From the IMG/VR virus record IMGVR_UViG_3300032020_000054, positions 1 to 20,738 of that record: a DNA stretch of 20,738 bases. The stretch is one strand, 5' to 3'. Below, in pieces: positions 3,705 through 20,314 of the stretch. Position 1 is the stretch's first letter, and every line of letters starts with the position of its first letter. The notes under the pieces are model-generated. The model was not told where the DNA came from. It was given only the letters and a program-made list of their open reading frames with translations, and did no database searches. Position numbers and translations under genes: made by a program. Source of the stretch: a virus.

Positions 3705-3893
3705 ATGAGAAAACCCAAGAAAGATTTTAGCTATATGTTCACAGCAAAGGCATGTCCAGAATGTTATGGTTCTGGTTCAGATTACAATAATGGTGATGCT
3801 TGTTTCTCTTGTAAAGGCTCTGGGCAGATAAAAAGAAATTTAACCTCTGATCAACGTAAAGCTATAAACATACATTTTGGAATCGTCTCATAA
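3705..3893 (+). CDS. Small DnaJ-type (CxxCxGxG) zinc-binding protein
   Basis: This 62-residue protein has two CxxCxGSG units, CPECYGSG (Cys 17/20) and CFSCKGSG (Cys 33/36). That is the signature of the DnaJ cysteine-rich zinc domain, reduced here to a single four-cysteine site. No J-domain is present, so it is not a co-chaperone in the usual sense; a small zinc-stabilised adaptor is the most that can be inferred. The start ATG follows the previous stop by one base, with AAGGAG just upstream. Small proteins of this kind are frequent in phage genomes and in most cases have no known function. Confidence 0.8.
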   Translation: MRKPKKDFSYMFTAKACPECYGSGSDYNNGDACFSCKGSGQIKRNLTSDQRKAINIHFGIVS

Positions 3894-3927
3894 AATTGAA
3901 AAAAGAAAATAAAAAAGGAGACGTAAA

Positions 3928-4020
3928 ATGAAAGAAGATTTGAAGACAACAAACATCCTGCTGGGCATCATAGCCTTTTTGTCCTTTGTGAAGATAATTC
4001 TGGACTTGGGGATTTTTTAA
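3928..4020 (+). CDS. 30-residue single-pass membrane peptide
   Basis: A strong AAAAGGAG lies 7 bases before ATG 3928. The peptide is a short charged head (MKEDLKTTN) and then one continuous hydrophobic helix of about 20 residues (from ILLGIIAFLSFV), ending at TAA 4018-4020. The strength of the ribosome site and the clean membrane-helix design argue for a real gene despite its size. The function is unknown. Small single-helix phage peptides include holin-like, antiholin-like and exclusion proteins, but the position between head genes does not match a lysis cassette. Confidence 0.55.
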   Translation: MKEDLKTTNILLGIIAFLSFVKIILDLGIF

Positions 4021-4023
4021 AAA

Positions 4024-4191
4024 ATGCTTGACAAAAAGAACGAGGCATATTTAGATTATATCCGAGAACTTCTGGAGACGGACTTCACAGGGAATATAAC
4101 GGTCAATGTGTTCAAGGGGGTAATCGGGAATGTGCAGAAAGGATTCGAGCCTCCGATAAAAGTGTTGGAGACGGTGATGGTGAAAAGATGA
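4024..4191 (+). CDS. Small hypothetical protein (55 residues)
   Basis: The reading frame starts at ATG four bases after the membrane peptide's stop. The product, MLDKKNEAYLDYIRELLETD then a beta-like ITVNVFKGVIGNV stretch, looks like a compact helix-strand protein. I do not recognise it. There is no clear ribosome site, so expression probably depends on coupling to the preceding gene. Its stop (TGA 4189-4191) overlaps the next possible ATG as ATGA. Confidence 0.5.
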   Translation: MLDKKNEAYLDYIRELLETDFTGNITVNVFKGVIGNVQKGFEPPIKVLETVMVKR

Positions 4192-4322
4192 AAAAGAAGA
4201 AAACAAACAGCGTGACCGAATCACCCAGCGTGACTGACAGTGGCTGTCTTTTACATTGGAGCAGTTGGGTCACGAAAATAAATTGGGAACATTCGACACG
4301 CAAACGGAGACGAATATTATAA
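4188..4322 (+). CDS. Doubtful small basic reading frame, possibly part of a decayed gene
   Basis: An ATGA overlap starts a 44-codon frame (MKKKKTNSVTESPSVTDSG, ending in a basic TRKRRRIL). The composition is poor. Two other frames across the same bases carry more protein-like pieces: FTLEQLGHENKLGTF around 4253-4297 and, in another frame, NIRHANGDEYYNSELATLEE, ending in a TAA at 4378-4380. Three half-convincing frames in 190 bases suggest a gene broken by indels, or non-coding sequence with chance openings. Confidence 0.25.
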   Translation: MKKKKTNSVTESPSVTDSGCLLHWSSWVTKINWEHSTRKRRRIL

Positions 4323-4414
4323 TAGTGAGTTGGCTACATTGGAGGAAACTTTCAGTAAGTTAATGAAAACTATAAAATAAAATCTGAATAGCAGTTTCGG
4401 ATGATCTGACACAG

Positions 4415-4461
4415 AAGCCGATTAGTTCTGTCCGAGTGGACAAGGCTAATCGGCTTTTTTT
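4415..4461 (+). terminator. Intrinsic (rho-independent) terminator before the capsid operon
   Basis: AAGCCGATTAG (4415-4425) pairs perfectly over 11 bases with CTAATCGGCTT (4446-4456). Inside the loop a second perfect stem TGTCC-GAGT-GGACA (4429-4442) extends the hairpin. A run of T follows to 4461. An alternative hairpin, ACAGAA (4411-4416) with TTCTGT (4426-4431), would sequester the 5' arm and prevent terminator formation, as in attenuators. No promoter is visible between the T-run and the next gene's start 26 bases on. Confidence 0.85.
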
Positions 4462-4486
4462 ATTATTAAGAAAGAGAGGTGACAAA

Positions 4487-5737
4487 ATGCCTTATGATAA
4501 ATCGAGTCCGCCGGAAAAGATAAAGGGCTTGCCTGCCCATGCGCAGGACATCTGGATTTCCGCTTTTAACTCCGCTTACGAAAATACCCCCGAAGGCAGA
4601 GACAAGGAGGAATATGCAAGTCGAGTGGCTTGGTCGGCAGTCGAGAAGGCGGGATACAAAAAAAATAAAGAAGGGGATTGGGTGAAAATGTCCGATGTCA
4701 ATGAGCCCAATTTCGATGAGGTCGAGATTTGGCAAGCGGGAGAATATCCGCAAGGGACGTTTACGGAAAAAGATATAGACGAAATGGTTGCTAACTTTGA
4801 TCCGGGTTACCATGAACCGCCCGCTATAGTCGGGCATAATAAAGAAGGGGAGGATGAAAAACCGGCACATGCTTGGGTGGAGAAGATATGGCGAAACGGT
4901 TCTAAGTTAATGGCGAAATTCAAACAAGTTTCAAATGAATTGAAAACTTGGGTAAAAGAAGGCAAATACAAGAAAAAAAGCATCGAACTTTGGGATAACT
5001 TTGAAGGAACAGGCAAATTGGTTTTGAAGGCAGTGGCTTTTTTGGGACAAACCATCCCGCAAGTCAAGGGACTTCAGAATCAGTTTGGGTCTTTTGAAGA
5101 TGCTCATGGCAAGGTGCTTTGTATTGGTCTTGAGGAGAAAGGCAGAAAGTTTAAACAAGGAGATATCGACATGACAAAAGAAGAGTTCGACAATATGTTC
5201 GCAGAGAAAGTCAAGCCCCTTGAGGCTAAGGTCGCCACCTTGACTACCGAGAATGCAGAGTTGAAAAAGAGTCAGGTGACCCAATTTTCAGATGAGGCGA
5301 AAAAAAGAAAGCAGGAGCGGATAGACGGGGTCGTAAGCCAGCTGTTGAAAGACGGGAAGATAACGCCTGCCTATATGGATGCCGGATTCAAGCAGTTTCT
5401 CATGGCACAGCCAGACGGGATAGTCTTGACTCTCGGCGAGGAGAACGAGAAGAAGGAAATCCCGGTCATAGACTTCGCCATAGAGTTTTTCAGCAACAAG
5501 ATCAAGGGCGCTCCGGTAATTTTCAAGGAGATCAGCAAGGAGTCGGGAGATCCCATTGGGATGACAAACATGGGAATCTCATTCAAGGTCATCGATCCAA
5601 GCGACCAAATCACGGAAGATTCTTTGGATTTGCATGAGAAGACCGTGAAATTCATGGAGGAGTATAACGCCAAGAATCCGCAGCAAAGGATAGGTTACAA
5701 GGACGCCCTCTTTGAGATAAACAGAATCAATCCATAA
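4487..5737 (+). CDS. ChaB-domain / prohead protease fusion (Mu gpI-like)
   Basis: The first 66 or so residues match the ChaB domain: a PHAQDIWISAFNSAYE-like core (the sequence has LPAHAQDIWISAFNSAYENT), then AWSAVEKAGYKK and GDW. Residues from about 78 resemble phage capsid maturation proteases of the Mu gpI type: VGHNKEGEDEKPAHAWVEKI (115-134), KKSIELW (163-169) and AVAFLGQTIPQVKGL (182-196). His 117 and Ser 165 are candidate catalytic residues by position only. The C-terminal 188 residues form a scaffold region that begins with a coiled-coil-like segment and also has its own start at 5171. ATG 4487 with AGAGAGGTG upstream is chosen; an earlier in-frame GTG at 4436 lies inside the terminator hairpin. 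The protease would cleave the scaffold once the shell is built. Confidence 0.85.
   Translation: MPYDKSSPPEKIKGLPAHAQDIWISAFNSAYENTPEGRDKEEYASRVAWSAVEKAGYKKNKEGDWVKMSDVNEPNFDEVEIWQAGEYPQGTFTEKDIDEMVANFDPGYHEPPAIVGHNKEGEDEKPAHAWVEKIWRNGSKLMAKFKQVSNELKTWVKEGKYKKKSIELWDNFEGTGKLVLKAVAFLGQTIPQVKGLQNQFGSFEDAHGKVLCIGLEEKGRKFKQGDIDMTKEEFDNMFAEKVKPLEAKVATLTTENAELKKSQVTQFSDEAKKRKQERIDGVVSQLLKDGKITPAYMDAGFKQFLMAQPDGIVLTLGEENEKKEIPVIDFAIEFFSNKIKGAPVIFKEISKESGDPIGMTNMGISFKVIDPSDQITEDSLDLHEKTVKFMEEYNAKNPQQRIGYKDALFEINRINP
5171..5737 (+). CDS. Internal in-frame scaffold protein nested in the protease gene
   Basis: Inside the protease gene an excellent ribosome site AAGGAG (5157-5162) lies 8 bases before an in-frame ATG at 5171. 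The product would be the last 188 residues: MTKEEFDNMFAEKVKPLEAK, a heptad-like acidic/basic helix with TLTTENAELKKS, then a mixed C-terminal part. This is the arrangement known for Mu I/Z and lambda C/Nu3, where a separate scaffold shares the C-terminus of the protease. The position directly before the decoration and major capsid genes fits. The alternative is that the motif is a chance purine run in codons for Lys-Gln-Gly-Asp. Confidence 0.7.
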   Translation: MTKEEFDNMFAEKVKPLEAKVATLTTENAELKKSQVTQFSDEAKKRKQERIDGVVSQLLKDGKITPAYMDAGFKQFLMAQPDGIVLTLGEENEKKEIPVIDFAIEFFSNKIKGAPVIFKEISKESGDPIGMTNMGISFKVIDPSDQITEDSLDLHEKTVKFMEEYNAKNPQQRIGYKDALFEINRINP

Positions 5738-7666: not shown

Positions 7667-8140
7667 ATGGCAGATTGGATTTCGATAGGCGATGTCAAGA
7701 CCAGGCTGGGCGTGGCGGAGACCGCCAAGGGCTATACGGACACGGACATAACCTCCCGGATCGCCAGGGCGCAGAATCGGATCAAATCCAAACTGCAGTC
7801 TGTTTTTGACCTTGACACAATAGACGGTTGGGACGGAACGACCGCTCCGCCGGAGATCAGGGAATGGGCGAAGGACTTGGCGGCGGCATATGTCCTGAGC
7901 GACTACGGCGGACAGCCATTGGCGGACAGATCTACCCAGGCGGGATCGCTCTGGCGGATAGTGGAAGACGACCTTGAGGCGGTCAGGCTGGGGAAGATGC
8001 AGATAGTCGACACGTCCAATGCAAGTGTGGAGCCGGTGGTGGACTTGGTCTCAAGCACCACGCAAAGTCGAACTCCTGTCTATAGCATGAACCATCCTTC
8101 CGATTCGAATCATGGAGATGGCACCCTGGATGAGCTATGA
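7667..8140 (+). CDS. Head-tail connector protein (gp6 / Mu gp36 type)
   Basis: This 157-residue mostly helical protein begins WISIGDVKTRLGV and continues with DITSRIARAQNRIKSKL and APPEIREWAKDLAAAYVLSDYGG. That pattern (short N-terminal helix, amphipathic helix, then the IREWAKDLAAAY helix) is typical of adaptor proteins that bind under the portal. The gene starts 3 bases after the preceding stop and ends in an ATGA overlap with the next gene, in the correct place for the first connector gene. The last 35 residues are low-complexity and polar (SSTTQSRTPVYS). Confidence 0.75.
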   Translation: MADWISIGDVKTRLGVAETAKGYTDTDITSRIARAQNRIKSKLQSVFDLDTIDGWDGTTAPPEIREWAKDLAAAYVLSDYGGQPLADRSTQAGSLWRIVEDDLEAVRLGKMQIVDTSNASVEPVVDLVSSTTQSRTPVYSMNHPSDSNHGDGTLDEL

Positions 8141-8643
8141 TAGTCAGATTCACCAGAAAGCATAATCGGACGACAAAAGACATCTTCGGCGAGAAGTTTC
8201 AGCAGAAGTTGAAAATGCAGTTGCAGGGCGCCACTCAGAAGATCGCCCACTACTGCAAGCACAACCACACCTGGCAGAACAGGACTGGAGCGCTGGAGGA
8301 GTCGATCAACTTCACTCCTCCAGTGCTTAAAGGAAACATGTGGACTTCGACTGTGTTCGCCGGCGGATGGGCTAAGGTGAAATATGCTTTTTCTGGAAAA
8401 GCATGGGCATGGAGAGTCTACGGTGAATCAAAGGTGTTGGATTATCGCAAGCGAAATATCGGATATTCGAGAGGGCAAAGATTCGCATTCAAAAGAGGCA
8501 TGGGTCGGCTGGTGAACTACGCCCATTGGGTAGAGAAGAAGGGCTATCCTGTTTTGATACAGGGTATTGAAAAATACCGTCCTTTGCTTACGAGGATTTT
8601 TGCAGGTAACCTGAAGATCGAGAAGATAGGTCTGGGCAAATGA
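8137..8643 (+). CDS. Tail completion / head-closure protein, HK97 gp10-like
   Basis: This is a basic 168-residue protein. The N-terminal part has QNRTGALEESINF, and the C-terminal part has VNYAHWVEKKGYPVLIQGIE. The TGAL-ES-I and YA-x-W-V-E-KK-G segments are typical of the HK97 gp10-like / Mu gpG-like family, which joins the tail to the finished head. It overlaps the previous gene by ATGA and the next by ATGAG, so the three are translationally coupled. A 13-base-pair hairpin lies within its coding region at 8290-8326. Confidence 0.75.
   Translation: MIVRFTRKHNRTTKDIFGEKFQQKLKMQLQGATQKIAHYCKHNHTWQNRTGALEESINFTPPVLKGNMWTSTVFAGGWAKVKYAFSGKAWAWRVYGESKVLDYRKRNIGYSRGQRFAFKRGMGRLVNYAHWVEKKGYPVLIQGIEKYRPLLTRIFAGNLKIEKIGLGK
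8290..8326 (+). repeat. Intragenic inverted repeat (13-bp stem, 11-base loop)
   Basis: GCGCTGGAGGAGT (8290-8302) can pair with ACTCCTCCAGTGC (8314-8326) over all 13 positions in RNA, with one G-U wobble. It encodes the segment around TGALEESINFTPPV of the tail completion protein. A stem this long and GC-rich is uncommon inside a gene and could slow ribosomes or mark an RNA processing site. It may simply be coincidence. Confidence 0.6.
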
Positions 8644-9618: not shown

Positions 9619-10101
9619 ATGGCAGTAGACACTACGCAATTGTATTCGGGTCCGGTCACCTTCGTCAAGATCGGCGGGGTGGACATGGGGTCGACCTTCG
9701 ATGGCGTGGAGATTGCAAGGGAGGACGCCTTCGCCGATCTTCACTGCGATCAGATACTCGGCCCCGTAGTCAAGAACCTTACTTCAAGGAAATTTATAGT
9801 CTCCTTGAGGGGCGCCGAGCTTCAGCTTGGAAAGATAGAGAAACTTCTGGGACAAGAGGCCGGCAATCTCCAAAGCTCGTCATTAAAACTGAATGACGAC
9901 GAGCAAGGCTCGACCACGCTTGAGATCGTGCATCCTTGCCCGACTGGAGTGGGCAACAGGACGTGGAAATTCGATACCGTCTATAACGTGAGCGGAGGGG
10001 CGATAGCCTTCAAAAAAGACGGCACGCAGGCCGTGATCCCGACCACCTTCGACTGCCTGCCGGACACAAGTGGAAACTTTGGCTATGTCAAAGACGCCTA
10101 A
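9619..10101 (+). CDS. Tail tube-like protein, second paralogue
   Basis: This 160-residue protein has LYSGPVTFVKIGGVDMG at the start, then FDGVEIAREDAFADLHCDQI and KNLTSRKFIVSLRGAEL, lining up with its neighbour upstream. A C-terminal VYNVSGGAIAFKKDGTQAVI and TTFDCLPDTSGNFGYV resemble tube proteins of siphoviruses and myoviruses (beta-sandwich, final loop-strand). Its GC-rich regular codon use matches the capsid gene, so this is the likelier main tube subunit. AAAGGAGG lies upstream of the ATG. Its 3' end overlaps the glycosyltransferase start by 17 bases. Confidence 0.7.
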   Translation: MAVDTTQLYSGPVTFVKIGGVDMGSTFDGVEIAREDAFADLHCDQILGPVVKNLTSRKFIVSLRGAELQLGKIEKLLGQEAGNLQSSSLKLNDDEQGSTTLEIVHPCPTGVGNRTWKFDTVYNVSGGAIAFKKDGTQAVIPTTFDCLPDTSGNFGYVKDA

Positions 10102-11074
10102 GGTTCTGTTTGAAAGCCACGCACGGGTCGGCGGCTACGGGAGTGCTTATCAGAATTTTATGCTTGAGCTTTTGAGGGGGGGCGTGGATTTGGTCGATCC
10201 CAATGAGGACAAGTCCGCCCTTGCGGATGTCCATGTCTATCTTGGACAGCCCGACCGCAGATGGCAAAACGAATGGAAGCGAAGAGGGAAAGCCTTCGGC
10301 GTCTTCACCATGTTTGAGACGGAATTGCTCCCGCCGACCTGGGCGCAGGACATAAACGATATTTGCGACTTTGTGATCGTGCCCTCAAGATGGTGCAAGG
10401 AGATATTTGAGAGGAACAAGGTTGGGAAGCCTGTCTTTGTCGTTCCGCTCGGCGTGAATCCCTCGTCTTTCTTTTATCTGGAGCGTCCTGAAAGGGACAC
10501 TTTCACGGTCATCTGGCAGGGATTCCATGAGAAGGACAGGAAGGGATTCGCCATATTGGAAAAGGTCTTTGACGAGTTGGGTTTGCCAAATTCCTTGCTC
10601 ATCAAAAAGATCAGCCCCTTTTCTTTGTTTTCGCCGGTTCAATATGACTTGAGGCACAAGCATTGGGCTATCTGCAAGAACATGACACAGGCGGAGATGC
10701 TCATGCTATTGCGTCAAGCTGACCTTTCGGTCAATCCCACATCGGGAGAGGGATTCGGACTGATACCGCTTGAGCACATGGCTACGGGTTTGCCGGTGAT
10801 CGTCTCAGAGAACTCTGGATGCCTTGACTATCGGAATCCGCTTTACAACATCGGGATCGAATGCGAGGAGGGACTGAGCTGGTTCGGAGAGGATTTCGGA
10901 AAAATGATGGTGCCTTCTCCTGCCGAATTGAAAGCCAAAATCCAATGGACATATGATCACAAGGACGAGACAAGAGAAATGGGCAGGCGGGCTTCGGAAT
11001 GGGTGCGGAAGGAGTGGACTTACGAAAAAGCCACCCAAAAACTTTTGGAGGTAATAAATGGATTTGTCTCTTGA
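10085..11074 (+). CDS. Glycosyltransferase, GT4-like (GT-B fold)
   Basis: The enzyme should transfer a sugar from a nucleotide-sugar to an unknown acceptor. Counting from ATG 10085 (329 residues), the N-terminal acceptor half has RVGGYGSAYQNF (15-25) and CDFVIVPSRWCKEIF (94-108). The donor half has VVPLGVN (119-125) and the classic GT4 E-x7-E in SGEGFGLIPLEHMATGLPVI, with Glu 222 and Glu 230. A GTG five codons upstream (10070) is an alternative start. The gene begins inside the tail-tube gene and overlaps the methyltransferase by 17 bases, so it is made with the tail proteins. A virion protein such as the tube is the natural guess for acceptor; host envelope sugars or nucleotides are alternatives. 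Acceptor unknown; enzyme class firm. Confidence 0.9.
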   Translation: MSKTPKVLFESHARVGGYGSAYQNFMLELLRGGVDLVDPNEDKSALADVHVYLGQPDRRWQNEWKRRGKAFGVFTMFETELLPPTWAQDINDICDFVIVPSRWCKEIFERNKVGKPVFVVPLGVNPSSFFYLERPERDTFTVIWQGFHEKDRKGFAILEKVFDELGLPNSLLIKKISPFSLFSPVQYDLRHKHWAICKNMTQAEMLMLLRQADLSVNPTSGEGFGLIPLEHMATGLPVIVSENSGCLDYRNPLYNIGIECEEGLSWFGEDFGKMMVPSPAELKAKIQWTYDHKDETREMGRRASEWVRKEWTYEKATQKLLEVINGFVS

Positions 11075-11666
11075 GAAAAACAAAGAGATTCAAATCGATC
11101 ATTATCACAGATGTAAATCAATGCCAATTGATCCGCAACGACAAAAGTCCGATCAAAAAAGCTATGAAACACTGAAAGATTTCTTGCCGAAAGAAAAGGG
11201 CAAAGTGCTCGACCTGGGATGCGGCGAGGCGAATGCCTATCAGGTCTTGGCTGGACATGAATATTACGGACTGGATTGTTGTGAGGAAGCTCTTGAGGTA
11301 GCCAAGAAAAAAGTTGACGATCCCGATTGTTTAAGATTTGGCATGATCGAAGAGATTCCCTTTGAGAATGATTGTTTTGATATGGTATGGGCAAGGCATG
11401 TCTTGGAGCATTCTTGCGACATAGAAAAGACGCTGGATGAAATCATCCGAGTATTGAAGCCTGACGGATTGTTGATCTACGCCGTTCCCCAGGGGATTCA
11501 TGACGAGCCCGCCCACCGTTTCCAGACCGACAGGCAAGGATGGTTTGACCTTCTTTCCAAGAAATTCGGAATGCTCAAGGATGGCGTAAATGCAGACCCC
11601 GTGCTCTTAAACGAATATTACGGCGTTTGCCGAAACCAAAAACCAAAAGGAGGTTTTTATGAATGA
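11058..11666 (+). CDS. Class I SAM-dependent methyltransferase
   Basis: This 202-residue protein has the Rossmann methyltransferase core: motif I GKVLDLGCGEA (48-58), an Asp 73 at the end of strand 2 (YGLDCCEEALEVA), post-motif EIPFENDCFDMVWARHVLEH (99-118) and LKPDGLLIYAVP (133-144). It resembles the UbiE/methyltransferase-11 group that modifies small molecules or sugars rather than DNA; no DNA-methylase (D/N/S)PPY motif is present. TTGGAGG before its ATG lies in the end of the glycosyltransferase gene. The next gene's ribosome site AAAAGGAGG lies in its own end. The pairing suggests it methylates what the glycosyltransferase makes or attaches. Confidence 0.88.
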   Translation: MDLSLEKNKEIQIDHYHRCKSMPIDPQRQKSDQKSYETLKDFLPKEKGKVLDLGCGEANAYQVLAGHEYYGLDCCEEALEVAKKKVDDPDCLRFGMIEEIPFENDCFDMVWARHVLEHSCDIEKTLDEIIRVLKPDGLLIYAVPQGIHDEPAHRFQTDRQGWFDLLSKKFGMLKDGVNADPVLLNEYYGVCRNQKPKGGFYE

Positions 11667-19404: not shown

Positions 19405-19509
19405 ATGCCTAAGAAGAAACCTACTGGCTATATCTTACCTGATGGTTCAGCATTTTTTGTGGCAACCGTGCCATCCAAAAAGAAAAAGCCAAAGGGCAAG
19501 CCAGAATAG
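19405..19509 (+). CDS. 34-residue basic peptide
   Basis: TAAGGAGG lies 5 bases before ATG 19405, one of the best ribosome sites in the window. The peptide MPKKKPTGYILPDGSAFFV then a lysine-rich SKKKKPKGKPE ends at TAG 19507-19509. It is not recognised. The strong site and position right after the exported protein suggest that it is translated. The basic end could bind nucleic acid or membrane lipid. Confidence 0.55.
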   Translation: MPKKKPTGYILPDGSAFFVATVPSKKKKPKGKPE

Positions 19510-19511
19510 AC

Positions 19512-19697
19512 ATGGACGGATTGGAGCGACCGTTTTCCGAAGTAACTGAGGAAGGGACTTCGGCGGTATGTATCCGAGCCGTCCGCCAAATCCGCAGGGT
19601 GGGGTCTTCTATTATAAAGGCAGTCTACAGCCTATCACCTCCTCATAATCCCCTGAAGACCCGCCCTGCAAAAAAAGTCTTGACAAAAAAATATTGA
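19512..19697 (+). CDS. Doubtful 61-residue frame spanning an inverted repeat
   Basis: ATG 19512 opens a frame of 61 codons rich in arginine and serine, with no ribosome site of its own and poor composition (CIRAVRQIRRVGSSI). It crosses the inverted repeat at 19594-19669 and the promoter region. A second overlapping frame, ATG 19568 to TAA 19646-19648, encodes MYPSRPPNPQGGVFYYKGSL and looks more like a protein. Neither is well supported; both may be by-products of the inverted repeat. Confidence 0.2.
   Translation: MDGLERPFSEVTEEGTSAVCIRAVRQIRRVGSSIIKAVYSLSPPHNPLKTRPAKKVLTKKY
19594..19669. repeat. Long imperfect inverted repeat upstream of the promoter pair
   Basis: GCAGGGTGGGGTCTTC (19594-19609) and GAAGACCCGCCCTGC (19655-19669) pair as 8 bp (GGGTCTTC/GAAGACCC), a small internal loop, then 6 bp (GCAGGG/CCCTGC). 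The 45-base loop holds a small AGGC/GCCT hairpin. The + strand continues with A7, not T, so it is not a simple terminator on this strand. It could be a processing stem, a protein site, or the end of the preceding transcript. Confidence 0.6.
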
Positions 19698-19708
19698 TGT
19701 CGTATAGT
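19680..19708 (+). promoter_or_regulatory. Near-consensus sigma-70-type promoter P1
   Basis: TTGACA (19680-19685), a 17-base spacer and TATAGT (19703-19708) give a perfect -35 box, ideal spacing and five of six bases of the -10 box. The surroundings are AT-rich. Start of transcription would be near 19715. It drives rightward, into a segment with extensive RNA base-pairing potential and then small genes. Confidence 0.8.
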
Positions 19709-19722
19709 AAATTGGGTATAAT
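19694..19722 (+). promoter_or_regulatory. Overlapping second promoter P2
   Basis: TTGATG (19694-19699), 17 bases and a perfect TATAAT (19717-19722) make a second promoter shifted 14 bases from P1, with its -35 in P1's spacer. Transcription would begin near 19729, at the start of the first hairpin. Two overlapping strong promoters could compete for polymerase or switch between two 5' ends. Confidence 0.65.
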
Positions 19723-19723
19723 G

Positions 19724-19846
19724 AGAAGGTTGCCTTCTGTAAAAAGAAAGGGCGTATCATTATACCAAGTCGGTATGGGGATTAGCAACCTTACCCCATT
19801 TCGGCGAAACAAGGAGTATGTTCGCTTTTTGTTTACGCCCTTCTTT
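19724..19846 (+). ncRNA. Candidate structured RNA or 5' leader with pseudoknot potential
   Basis: The transcript from P1/P2 holds several pairings found by eye. A closing stem joins AAGGGCGTA (19748-19756) to TACGCCCTT (19834-19842), extended after a one-base bulge by AAAG/CTTT. Inside lie ATACC/GGTAT (19762-19776), ATGGGG/CCCCAT (19775-19799) and GCGAA/TTCGC (19804-19825). At the 5' end AGAAGG-TTG-CCTTCT (19724-19738) forms a hairpin, while AAGGTTGC (19726-19733) can instead pair with GCAACCTT (19785-19792) in the loop of the ATGGGG hairpin, giving a pseudoknot. No known RNA family is recognised. It ends 12 bases before a small membrane-protein start, so it may be a leader of that gene or a free RNA. 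Confidence 0.5.
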
Positions 19847-19858
19847 GGAGCGTGTTTG

Positions 19859-20005
19859 ATGAGCAAGCCCCTTCAAACGATAATCCCAGTTATCCGAGAA
19901 AATGGTCTTTCTATTCTTGCTTTATTCCTAATAATAGTAAGCTCTTTTGAATGCTGGGATAAAAACATATTCTTTAACCATACTTGCACAATTCAAAGCA
20001 CGTAA
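19859..20005 (+). CDS. Small single-pass membrane protein (48 residues)
   Basis: ATG 19859 has TGGAG about 9 bases before it. The peptide has a polar start MSKPLQTIIPVIRENG, a hydrophobic segment LSILALFLIIVSSF (about 17-30) and a polar end with two cysteines (CWDKNIFFNHTC). An upstream extension of the same frame to 19694 exists, but it reads through the structured segment and promoter and looks non-coding. As the first gene behind P1/P2 it may be controlled by the structured RNA. Possible roles are a holin-like or exclusion peptide, given the probable cell-wall peptidase 570 bases further on. Not recognised. Confidence 0.45.
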   Translation: MSKPLQTIIPVIRENGLSILALFLIIVSSFECWDKNIFFNHTCTIQST

Positions 20006-20058
20006 TTTTTGTTTTTTGAGATTTTTTTTCAAATTTGTTTTTTTCTTATCTCGGAAAC

Positions 20059-20071
20059 AAAGAAAGGGCGT
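20059..20071 (+). repeat. 13-base direct repeat AAAGAAAGGGCGT (copy 2 of 2)
   Basis: AAAGAAAGGGCGT occurs at 19743-19755 and again at 20059-20071, identically. Its near-complement ACGCCCTTCTTT lies between them at 19835-19846, so either copy could form the closing stem of the structured segment. That would give two alternative RNA foldings. The region around the second copy is followed at once by a hairpin. Confidence 0.6.
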
Positions 20072-20077
20072 GCTATC

Positions 20078-20099
20078 AAAAGCATAAGAGAATGCTTTT
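20078..20099 (+). repeat. Perfect 8-bp hairpin
   Basis: AAAAGCAT (20078-20085), a six-base loop and ATGCTTTT (20092-20099) form a perfect stem. The T4 at its end is too short for a strong terminator, but the AT-rich sequence after it may assist. It may end the transcript of the small membrane protein. Confidence 0.5.
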
Positions 20100-20165
20100 A
20101 AGGTTTTAAGTTTTAGATTTTAAGATTTTAGATTTTAAGGGTTTAAGATTTTAAAGACTTTAAAA
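20100..20165. repeat. Degenerate AT-rich tandem repeat (TTTTAAG / TTTTAGA units)
   Basis: Eight or so units of 7 to 9 bases vary around TTTTAAG and GATTTTA. Bases 20101-20160 hold 12 G or C in 60 (20%). The unit length is not constant and no clear boundary is visible. It could be a DNA-unwinding element, a curved spacer, or simple slippage expansion. Confidence 0.7.
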
Positions 20166-20193
20166 TCGGTGCGAGGTTTGTCTTGAAAAATAT

Positions 20194-20287
20194 GAGGGCA
20201 CCATCTTGCTTGCAAAATGCCGAGCTTGAATCTATCGTATCAGTCTCAATCTTGAACACTCGCAGGTTTTTCAGGGATGGTGCTCTC
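20194..20287. repeat. 12-base inverted repeat with 70-base interior
   Basis: GAGGGCACCATC (20194-20205) and GATGGTGCTCTC (20276-20287) pair at 11 of 12 positions, the remaining position being G opposite T (a wobble in RNA). The interior contains CGAG/CTCG and two copies of CTTGAA. It could be a long RNA hairpin before the HNH gene or the trace of a mobile element; no target duplication is visible. Confidence 0.6.
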
Positions 20288-20314
20288 CTTAAATGTTTCA
20301 GAATAAAAAAATAT

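Follow-up and report, generated by a model that had tools for sequence, protein, structure and literature searches.

A putative pseudoknotted 5′ leader upstream of a small membrane-protein ORF in an uncultured Mu-like phage

We describe a compact, densely base-paired element located between the last tail-side genes of a phage and the gene for an HNH-type phage endonuclease (phrog_2340, E 3e-14). The sequence studied is an IMG/VR virus record, of which the window (i.e. the whole stretch of DNA that was analyzed) comprises 20,738 bases. Of several explanations for this non-random element, the best, which we hold tentatively and which is unproven, is that the segment is a 5′ leader exerting translational control over a 48-amino acid (aa) membrane peptide encoded from position 19859. 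The element would then be a so far single-copy case of a pseudoknotted translational leader. A first-pass annotation of the same DNA had pictured a promoter of its own driving a structured RNA that precedes a small ORF for a membrane protein. The folding statistics, the strand asymmetry, the placement of the promoter, and the position of the Shine-Dalgarno sequence all support that picture.

The genes of the window (terminase, Mu-type portal, head, and tail genes) all lie on the plus strand, and a family search of the window proteins assigned the portal to Portal_Mu (E 4e-91); the source is an uncultured Mu-like phage. Bacterial relatives of the portal among the scan matches are all in Candidatus Sumerlaeota genomes (30–39% identity), and they have head genes in common with this phage but nothing around the RNA. 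The head genes of the phage resemble those of prophages in a phylum that is known chiefly through metagenomic data. The element lies in a 0.8-kb stretch (19505–20310) that holds no gene with known relatives and that is AT-rich over 19640–20310 (GC content of 36% versus 47%). We also note a glycosyltransferase and a methyltransferase gene inserted among the tail genes (10070–11666) and, at 19405–19509, a lysine-rich 34-aa ORF with a perfect AAGGAGG Shine-Dalgarno sequence, which had no family match in the family search. A search for tRNA and tmRNA genes found none. A 4.7-kb viral contig encodes a portal that is 78% identical and a next gene that is 77% identical, and its terminase match is confined to the C terminus (49% over 42 aa).

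Both promoters and all pairings of the first-pass annotation were recovered where it had placed them. The predicted fold consists of the following plus-strand helices. Helix S1 (10 bp; 19715–19724/19757–19766), in which GGTATAATGA pairs with TCATTATACC, was identified in a helix search as the second-strongest helix in the region and is absent from the pairings of the first-pass annotation. The closing helix S2 (19748–19756/19834–19842) is a perfect Watson-Crick stem of 9 bp, as annotated, yet it is longer than had been proposed, continuing beyond a bulged A19747 by four more pairs (19743–19746/19843–19846). The 8-bp match between the leader and the loop of hairpin 2 (S3; 19726–19733/19785–19792) is present and also perfectly Watson-Crick. 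Three hairpins had been placed inside the closing stem; two of these are there, namely hairpin 2 (5+6 bp with a U-U mismatch and two G-U pairs; 19769–19805) and hairpin 3 (10–11 bp with three G-U pairs; 19808–19833), both from fold prediction, whereas the third, the small hairpin AGAAGG/CCUUCU (19724–19729/19733–19738), lies 5′ of that stem. The small hairpin excludes S3, so that the two compete. The four strongest helices of the region are mutually compatible. Further, S1 crosses S2 with zero bases between their strands at 19756/19757, an arrangement that would correspond in our model to an H-type pseudoknot with stacked helices. We note separately that an exact 13-base direct repeat, AAAGAAAGGGCGT, occurs at 19743–19755, on the 5′ side of the closing helix, and again at 20059–20071.

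The density of pairing exceeds chance, as had been claimed, by each of three measures. Folded with RNAfold, the 145-nt element gave a z score of −4.0 and its core (19743–19846) a z score of −5.0, with none of 200 shuffles as good in either case; this comparison of folding energy with shuffled sequence had been named beforehand as a test that could refute the claim, and it did not do so. In the third measure, helix packing, the best set of non-overlapping helices is scored with crossing (pseudoknots) allowed, and the element scored 60.9 compared with 38.1 ± 5.2 in shuffles (z 4.4; reached by 0 of 1000). Across 1213 tiles on both strands, the element ranks first in helix packing, with a tile phase that was chosen by hand and for which a 6-nt shift lowers z to 2.8, and it ranks 4th and 5th among 592 window tiles in nested folding. 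The core folds better as the plus strand than as the minus strand (−37.9 versus −32.4 kcal/mol; z −5.0 versus −3.4), and hairpins 2 and 3 together hold five G-U pairs, which a DNA palindrome does not need. Strand asymmetry and G-U pairs favor, short of proof, a plus-strand RNA in these models.

The annotated pair of promoters, staggered by 14 bases, is found on the plus strand as P1 (TTGACA-17-TATAGT; 19680–19708; 11/12 consensus match in the promoter scan) and a promoter-like P2 (TTGATG-17-TATAAT; 19694–19722; 10/12). The scan returned 10 promoter-like sites compared with 4.6 ± 2.0 in shuffles. At the usual distance from the −10 hexamer, transcription from P1 would be expected to start at about 19715, which is the first base of S1. 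The −10 hexamer of P2, TATAAT, falls within S1, and a P2 transcript would begin near 19729 and thus be without S1 and part of S3; P2 may simply arise as a side effect of the sequence of S1. Further, S1 sets two GGTATAATGA boxes face to face, which creates a promoter-like site on the minus strand (19788–19759; TTGCTA-18-TATAAT with an extended −10), so far a consensus match only. The scan for an intrinsic terminator marking the 3′ end of the RNA found none.

Directly after S2 is the Shine-Dalgarno sequence GGAG (19847–19850), 8 nt ahead of the ATG at 19859. The ORF (19859–20005, plus strand) encodes a predicted small membrane protein of 48 aa with a single hydrophobic segment (best 19-residue hydropathy of 1.93), for which protein searches found no relatives; its codon score is not gene-like, although the HNH gene scores no better despite having known relatives. 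In an alternative hairpin, ACGCCC (19835–19840) pairs with GG-A-GCGU (19847–19854) and hides the Shine-Dalgarno sequence. Because S2 and this mask both use ACGCCC, they are mutually exclusive. The nested minimum-energy fold masks GGAG in this way, and folding of the growing transcript takes the same path. In the energy model, the masked state is at −54.8 kcal/mol and the S2 state at −50.7 kcal/mol with the pseudoknot gain not included, so that, leaving aside the contributions of S1 and S3, S2 with the hairpins lies only ∼4 kcal/mol above the masked fold. The stacking energies of S1 (−15.9) and S3 (−14.1) are to be set against pseudoknot penalties of perhaps 15–20 in total, which is our own estimate, pseudoknot energies being rough; the two states would therefore be close in energy. 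It is in the energy model only that the leader has two mutually exclusive folds, one of which masks the ribosome binding site. As a control, we note that the Shine-Dalgarno sequences of several other window genes (e.g. at 3705 and 14385) are equally buried in the model, and masking alone is thus weak evidence.

We propose the following course of events for the leader. A short mRNA would be made from P1, beginning at the first base of S1, and the nested hairpins would form first during its synthesis (S1 enclosing a small helix, followed by hairpins 2 and 3). ACGCCC would then pair forward onto the Shine-Dalgarno sequence, and translation would be low. In the other state, S2 would hold ACGCCC, S1 and S2 would stack as an H-type pseudoknot, S3 would tie the leader to the loop of hairpin 2, and GGAG would be left free immediately 3′ of the knot. 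Any factor stabilizing one state, be it protein, ligand, or antisense RNA, or simply the passage of time, would set the output of the peptide, plausibly for lysis or membrane toxicity. The sequence analysis shows the pairings, which of them fit together or exclude one another, their excess over shuffles, and where the promoters and the Shine-Dalgarno sequence lie. From this arrangement we infer transcription of the RNA, the switch and its direction, indeed any regulation at all by the RNA, and the role of the peptide. With respect to that role, the contig L037 encodes a protein that has the N terminus MIEFKTPRIE in common with ORF 20580, and directly 5′ of it a small protein whose N-terminal part bears a hydrophobic segment; in a relative prophage contig, two small proteins with hydrophobic segments follow the tail fiber. 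The 48-aa peptide might likewise act in lysis or in the manner of a holin, which would fit that gene slot.

The proposed leader has features in common with several known systems. Translational riboswitches of the SAM-II and preQ1 types swap an anti-Shine-Dalgarno element between two helices, and the leader likewise has such an element shared by two alternative helices; unlike them, it has no Rfam match, no downstream metabolic gene, and no recognizable conserved ligand pocket. In the ribosomal-protein operators of Escherichia coli (rpsO and the alpha operon), a pseudoknot exchanges with a nested fold at the ribosome binding site, as would be the case here, but in those operators the regulator is known and the start codon lies inside or next to the knot, and there is no relation in sequence or genes. 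The gene 32 mRNA of phage T4 resembles our element in being a phage mRNA with an H-type pseudoknot in its leader (here predicted). The T4 knot is far smaller than this leader; unlike the arrangement here, 67 nt separate it from the start codon and an unstructured A+U-rich operator follows it, the regulated gene encodes a single-stranded DNA-binding protein that is autoregulated (by gp32), and no second interaction like S3 is present. The T4 pseudoknot, upstream of the start codon, consists of two coaxially stacked helices, and a pseudoknot is likewise known in the rpsO mRNA of E. coli (PMC3014915). A 2010 review remarked that, among viruses, translational autoregulation by means of a pseudoknot may be confined to the T4-type gene 32 leader (PMC3014915). 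If the leader reading is true, the element would be a second phage leader of the T4 gene 32 kind, widening that list, and a compact model for the timing of a membrane protein by RNA.

A broader claim, which is unlikely, is that the element represents a phage regulatory RNA of a new class. It would be a translational switch with two pseudoknots (the S1/S2 knot and the S3 lock), setting the timing of a small membrane peptide at the late-gene end of phages related to Sumerlaeota prophages. The first-pass annotation had recognized no known RNA class here, and this is supported by a search of Rfam 15 (including riboswitches, ribozymes, GOLLD, and ROOL), which gave nothing above the gathering score, the best match reaching 19.6 bits versus 78. 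We found no homologue in named phages, in scans of viral contigs with DNA patterns and flanking proteins, or, with a covariance model built from one sequence, in 40 genomes of the Sumerlaeota phylum or related contigs. The hits of the covariance model were chance matches, the best (in L036) being a plain terminator-like hairpin. The flanking-protein queries were the 716-aa tail protein, the 337-aa tail-side protein, a 166-aa signal peptide-like protein, the 48-aa peptide, and the last ORF; compared with these and the DNA patterns, only the portal query returned real relatives. In a Sumerlaeota prophage contig (L047), a structured stretch lacking genes at a comparable position proved to consist of repeats where the prophage meets the host gene dprA. 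A type III toxin-antitoxin unit (ToxIN-like) was rejected, as the region is without tandem pseudoknot repeats and no ToxN-like nuclease family was found.

The helices could instead belong to a larger noncoding RNA of the phage spanning most of 19505–20310 rather than a leader for the 48-aa ORF, which we consider unlikely. Large ornate RNAs such as GOLLD and ROOL do occur in phages, and the AT-rich stretch lacking genes with known relatives would suit one. The segment 19505–19680 folds at z −5.1, better than the element described here, 20190–20292 folds at z −3.75, and the whole 806 nt folds at z −6.0 (20 shuffles). With neighboring stretches equally structured, the leader does not stand out clearly as a unit of its own, and these values make a larger RNA conceivable. 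However, relaxing the Rfam search to E 10 brought up no family with a plausible score, and P1 lies in the middle of the stretch with the Shine-Dalgarno sequence and ORF directly downstream of the element. Structures observed in the flanks include a pair of long, imperfect hairpins side by side immediately upstream of P1 (19512–19590 and 19590–19676; z −4.4 and −5.8, plus strand) and a 12-nt inverted repeat (92% complementary; 20194–20287) that closes an ∼95-nt element just before the HNH gene (z −3.75 on the plus and −2.0 on the minus strand).

An explanation at the level of DNA, namely inverted repeats without RNA function (host palindromes of the REP/MITE type, or operator/promoter repeats), is also unlikely, if only slightly more so. 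In a related prophage (L047, 14666–15395), the end beside dprA carries a near-perfect palindrome and a 161-bp tandem repeat with inverted repeats, which fold even better (z −10.2); because host intergenic palindromes near phage ends can thus fold more strongly, DNA repeats are a serious rival. Repeat-like scraps at 19616–19642 and 20105–20165 resemble Sumerlaeota intergenic repeats, AAAGAAAGGGCGT recurs at 20059, and the face-to-face GGTATAATGA boxes of S1 are what forms the minus-strand promoter-like site. Against this, the element has no second copy in the record or in the 40 Sumerlaeota-phylum genomes, among which the phage host may not be, no target-site duplication was seen, and the strand asymmetry and G-U pairs point to RNA. 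Further, a palindromic repeat accounts for neither S3 nor the crossing of S1 and S2. Were DNA repeats the answer, the case would caution against calling RNAs from folding alone. We note that TTTTAAGATTTTAGA-type repeats at 20096–20167 are also like Sumerlaeota intergenic repeats.

Less likely still is that the locus is a type I toxin-antitoxin-like unit, in which the 48-aa peptide would be a membrane toxin, kept silent by its leader and repressed by an antisense RNA that starts from the minus-strand site at 19788–19759. Membrane type I toxins are generally <60 aa and hydrophobic with one putative helix, and toxin mRNAs with a masked Shine-Dalgarno sequence are known (PMC8309996); the peptide fits this definition in size and hydrophobic segment, and the locus shares with the hok, tisB, and fst mRNAs a structured leader, a masked Shine-Dalgarno sequence, and a hydrophobic peptide of <60 aa (PMC8309996). 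In contrast to those systems, the peptide has no toxin-family match in Pfam, NCBIfam, or PADLOC, and the antisense side consists of the putative promoter, with no minus-strand terminator seen.

We regard it as very unlikely that the segment encodes protein, in which case an ATG at 19721 would open a frame that crosses the leader and joins the membrane ORF, giving a 94-aa protein from a nearly leaderless mRNA. The frame is indeed open for 46 codons ahead of ATG 19859, but 5% of shuffles have an open frame of that length, 19721 is without a Shine-Dalgarno sequence, and no relatives were found. The in-frame codon score of the leader (−0.095 versus 0.18 ± 0.11 for the genes of this phage) falls under the 1st percentile for pieces of genes, and by sequence the leader does not look coding. 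Least probable of all is chance structure, for although the stretch was picked by a reader from a 20.7-kb window in which other tiles reach similar z values, no shuffle reached its packing score and it tops the 1213 tiles.

Elsewhere in the window, the strongest nested-fold tile is 8191–8330 (∼5.7 S.D.), within an ORF of unassigned function (8137–8643), and a 717-nt gap without long ORFs (3719–4435) has at its right end (4341–4550) some of the best-folding tiles.
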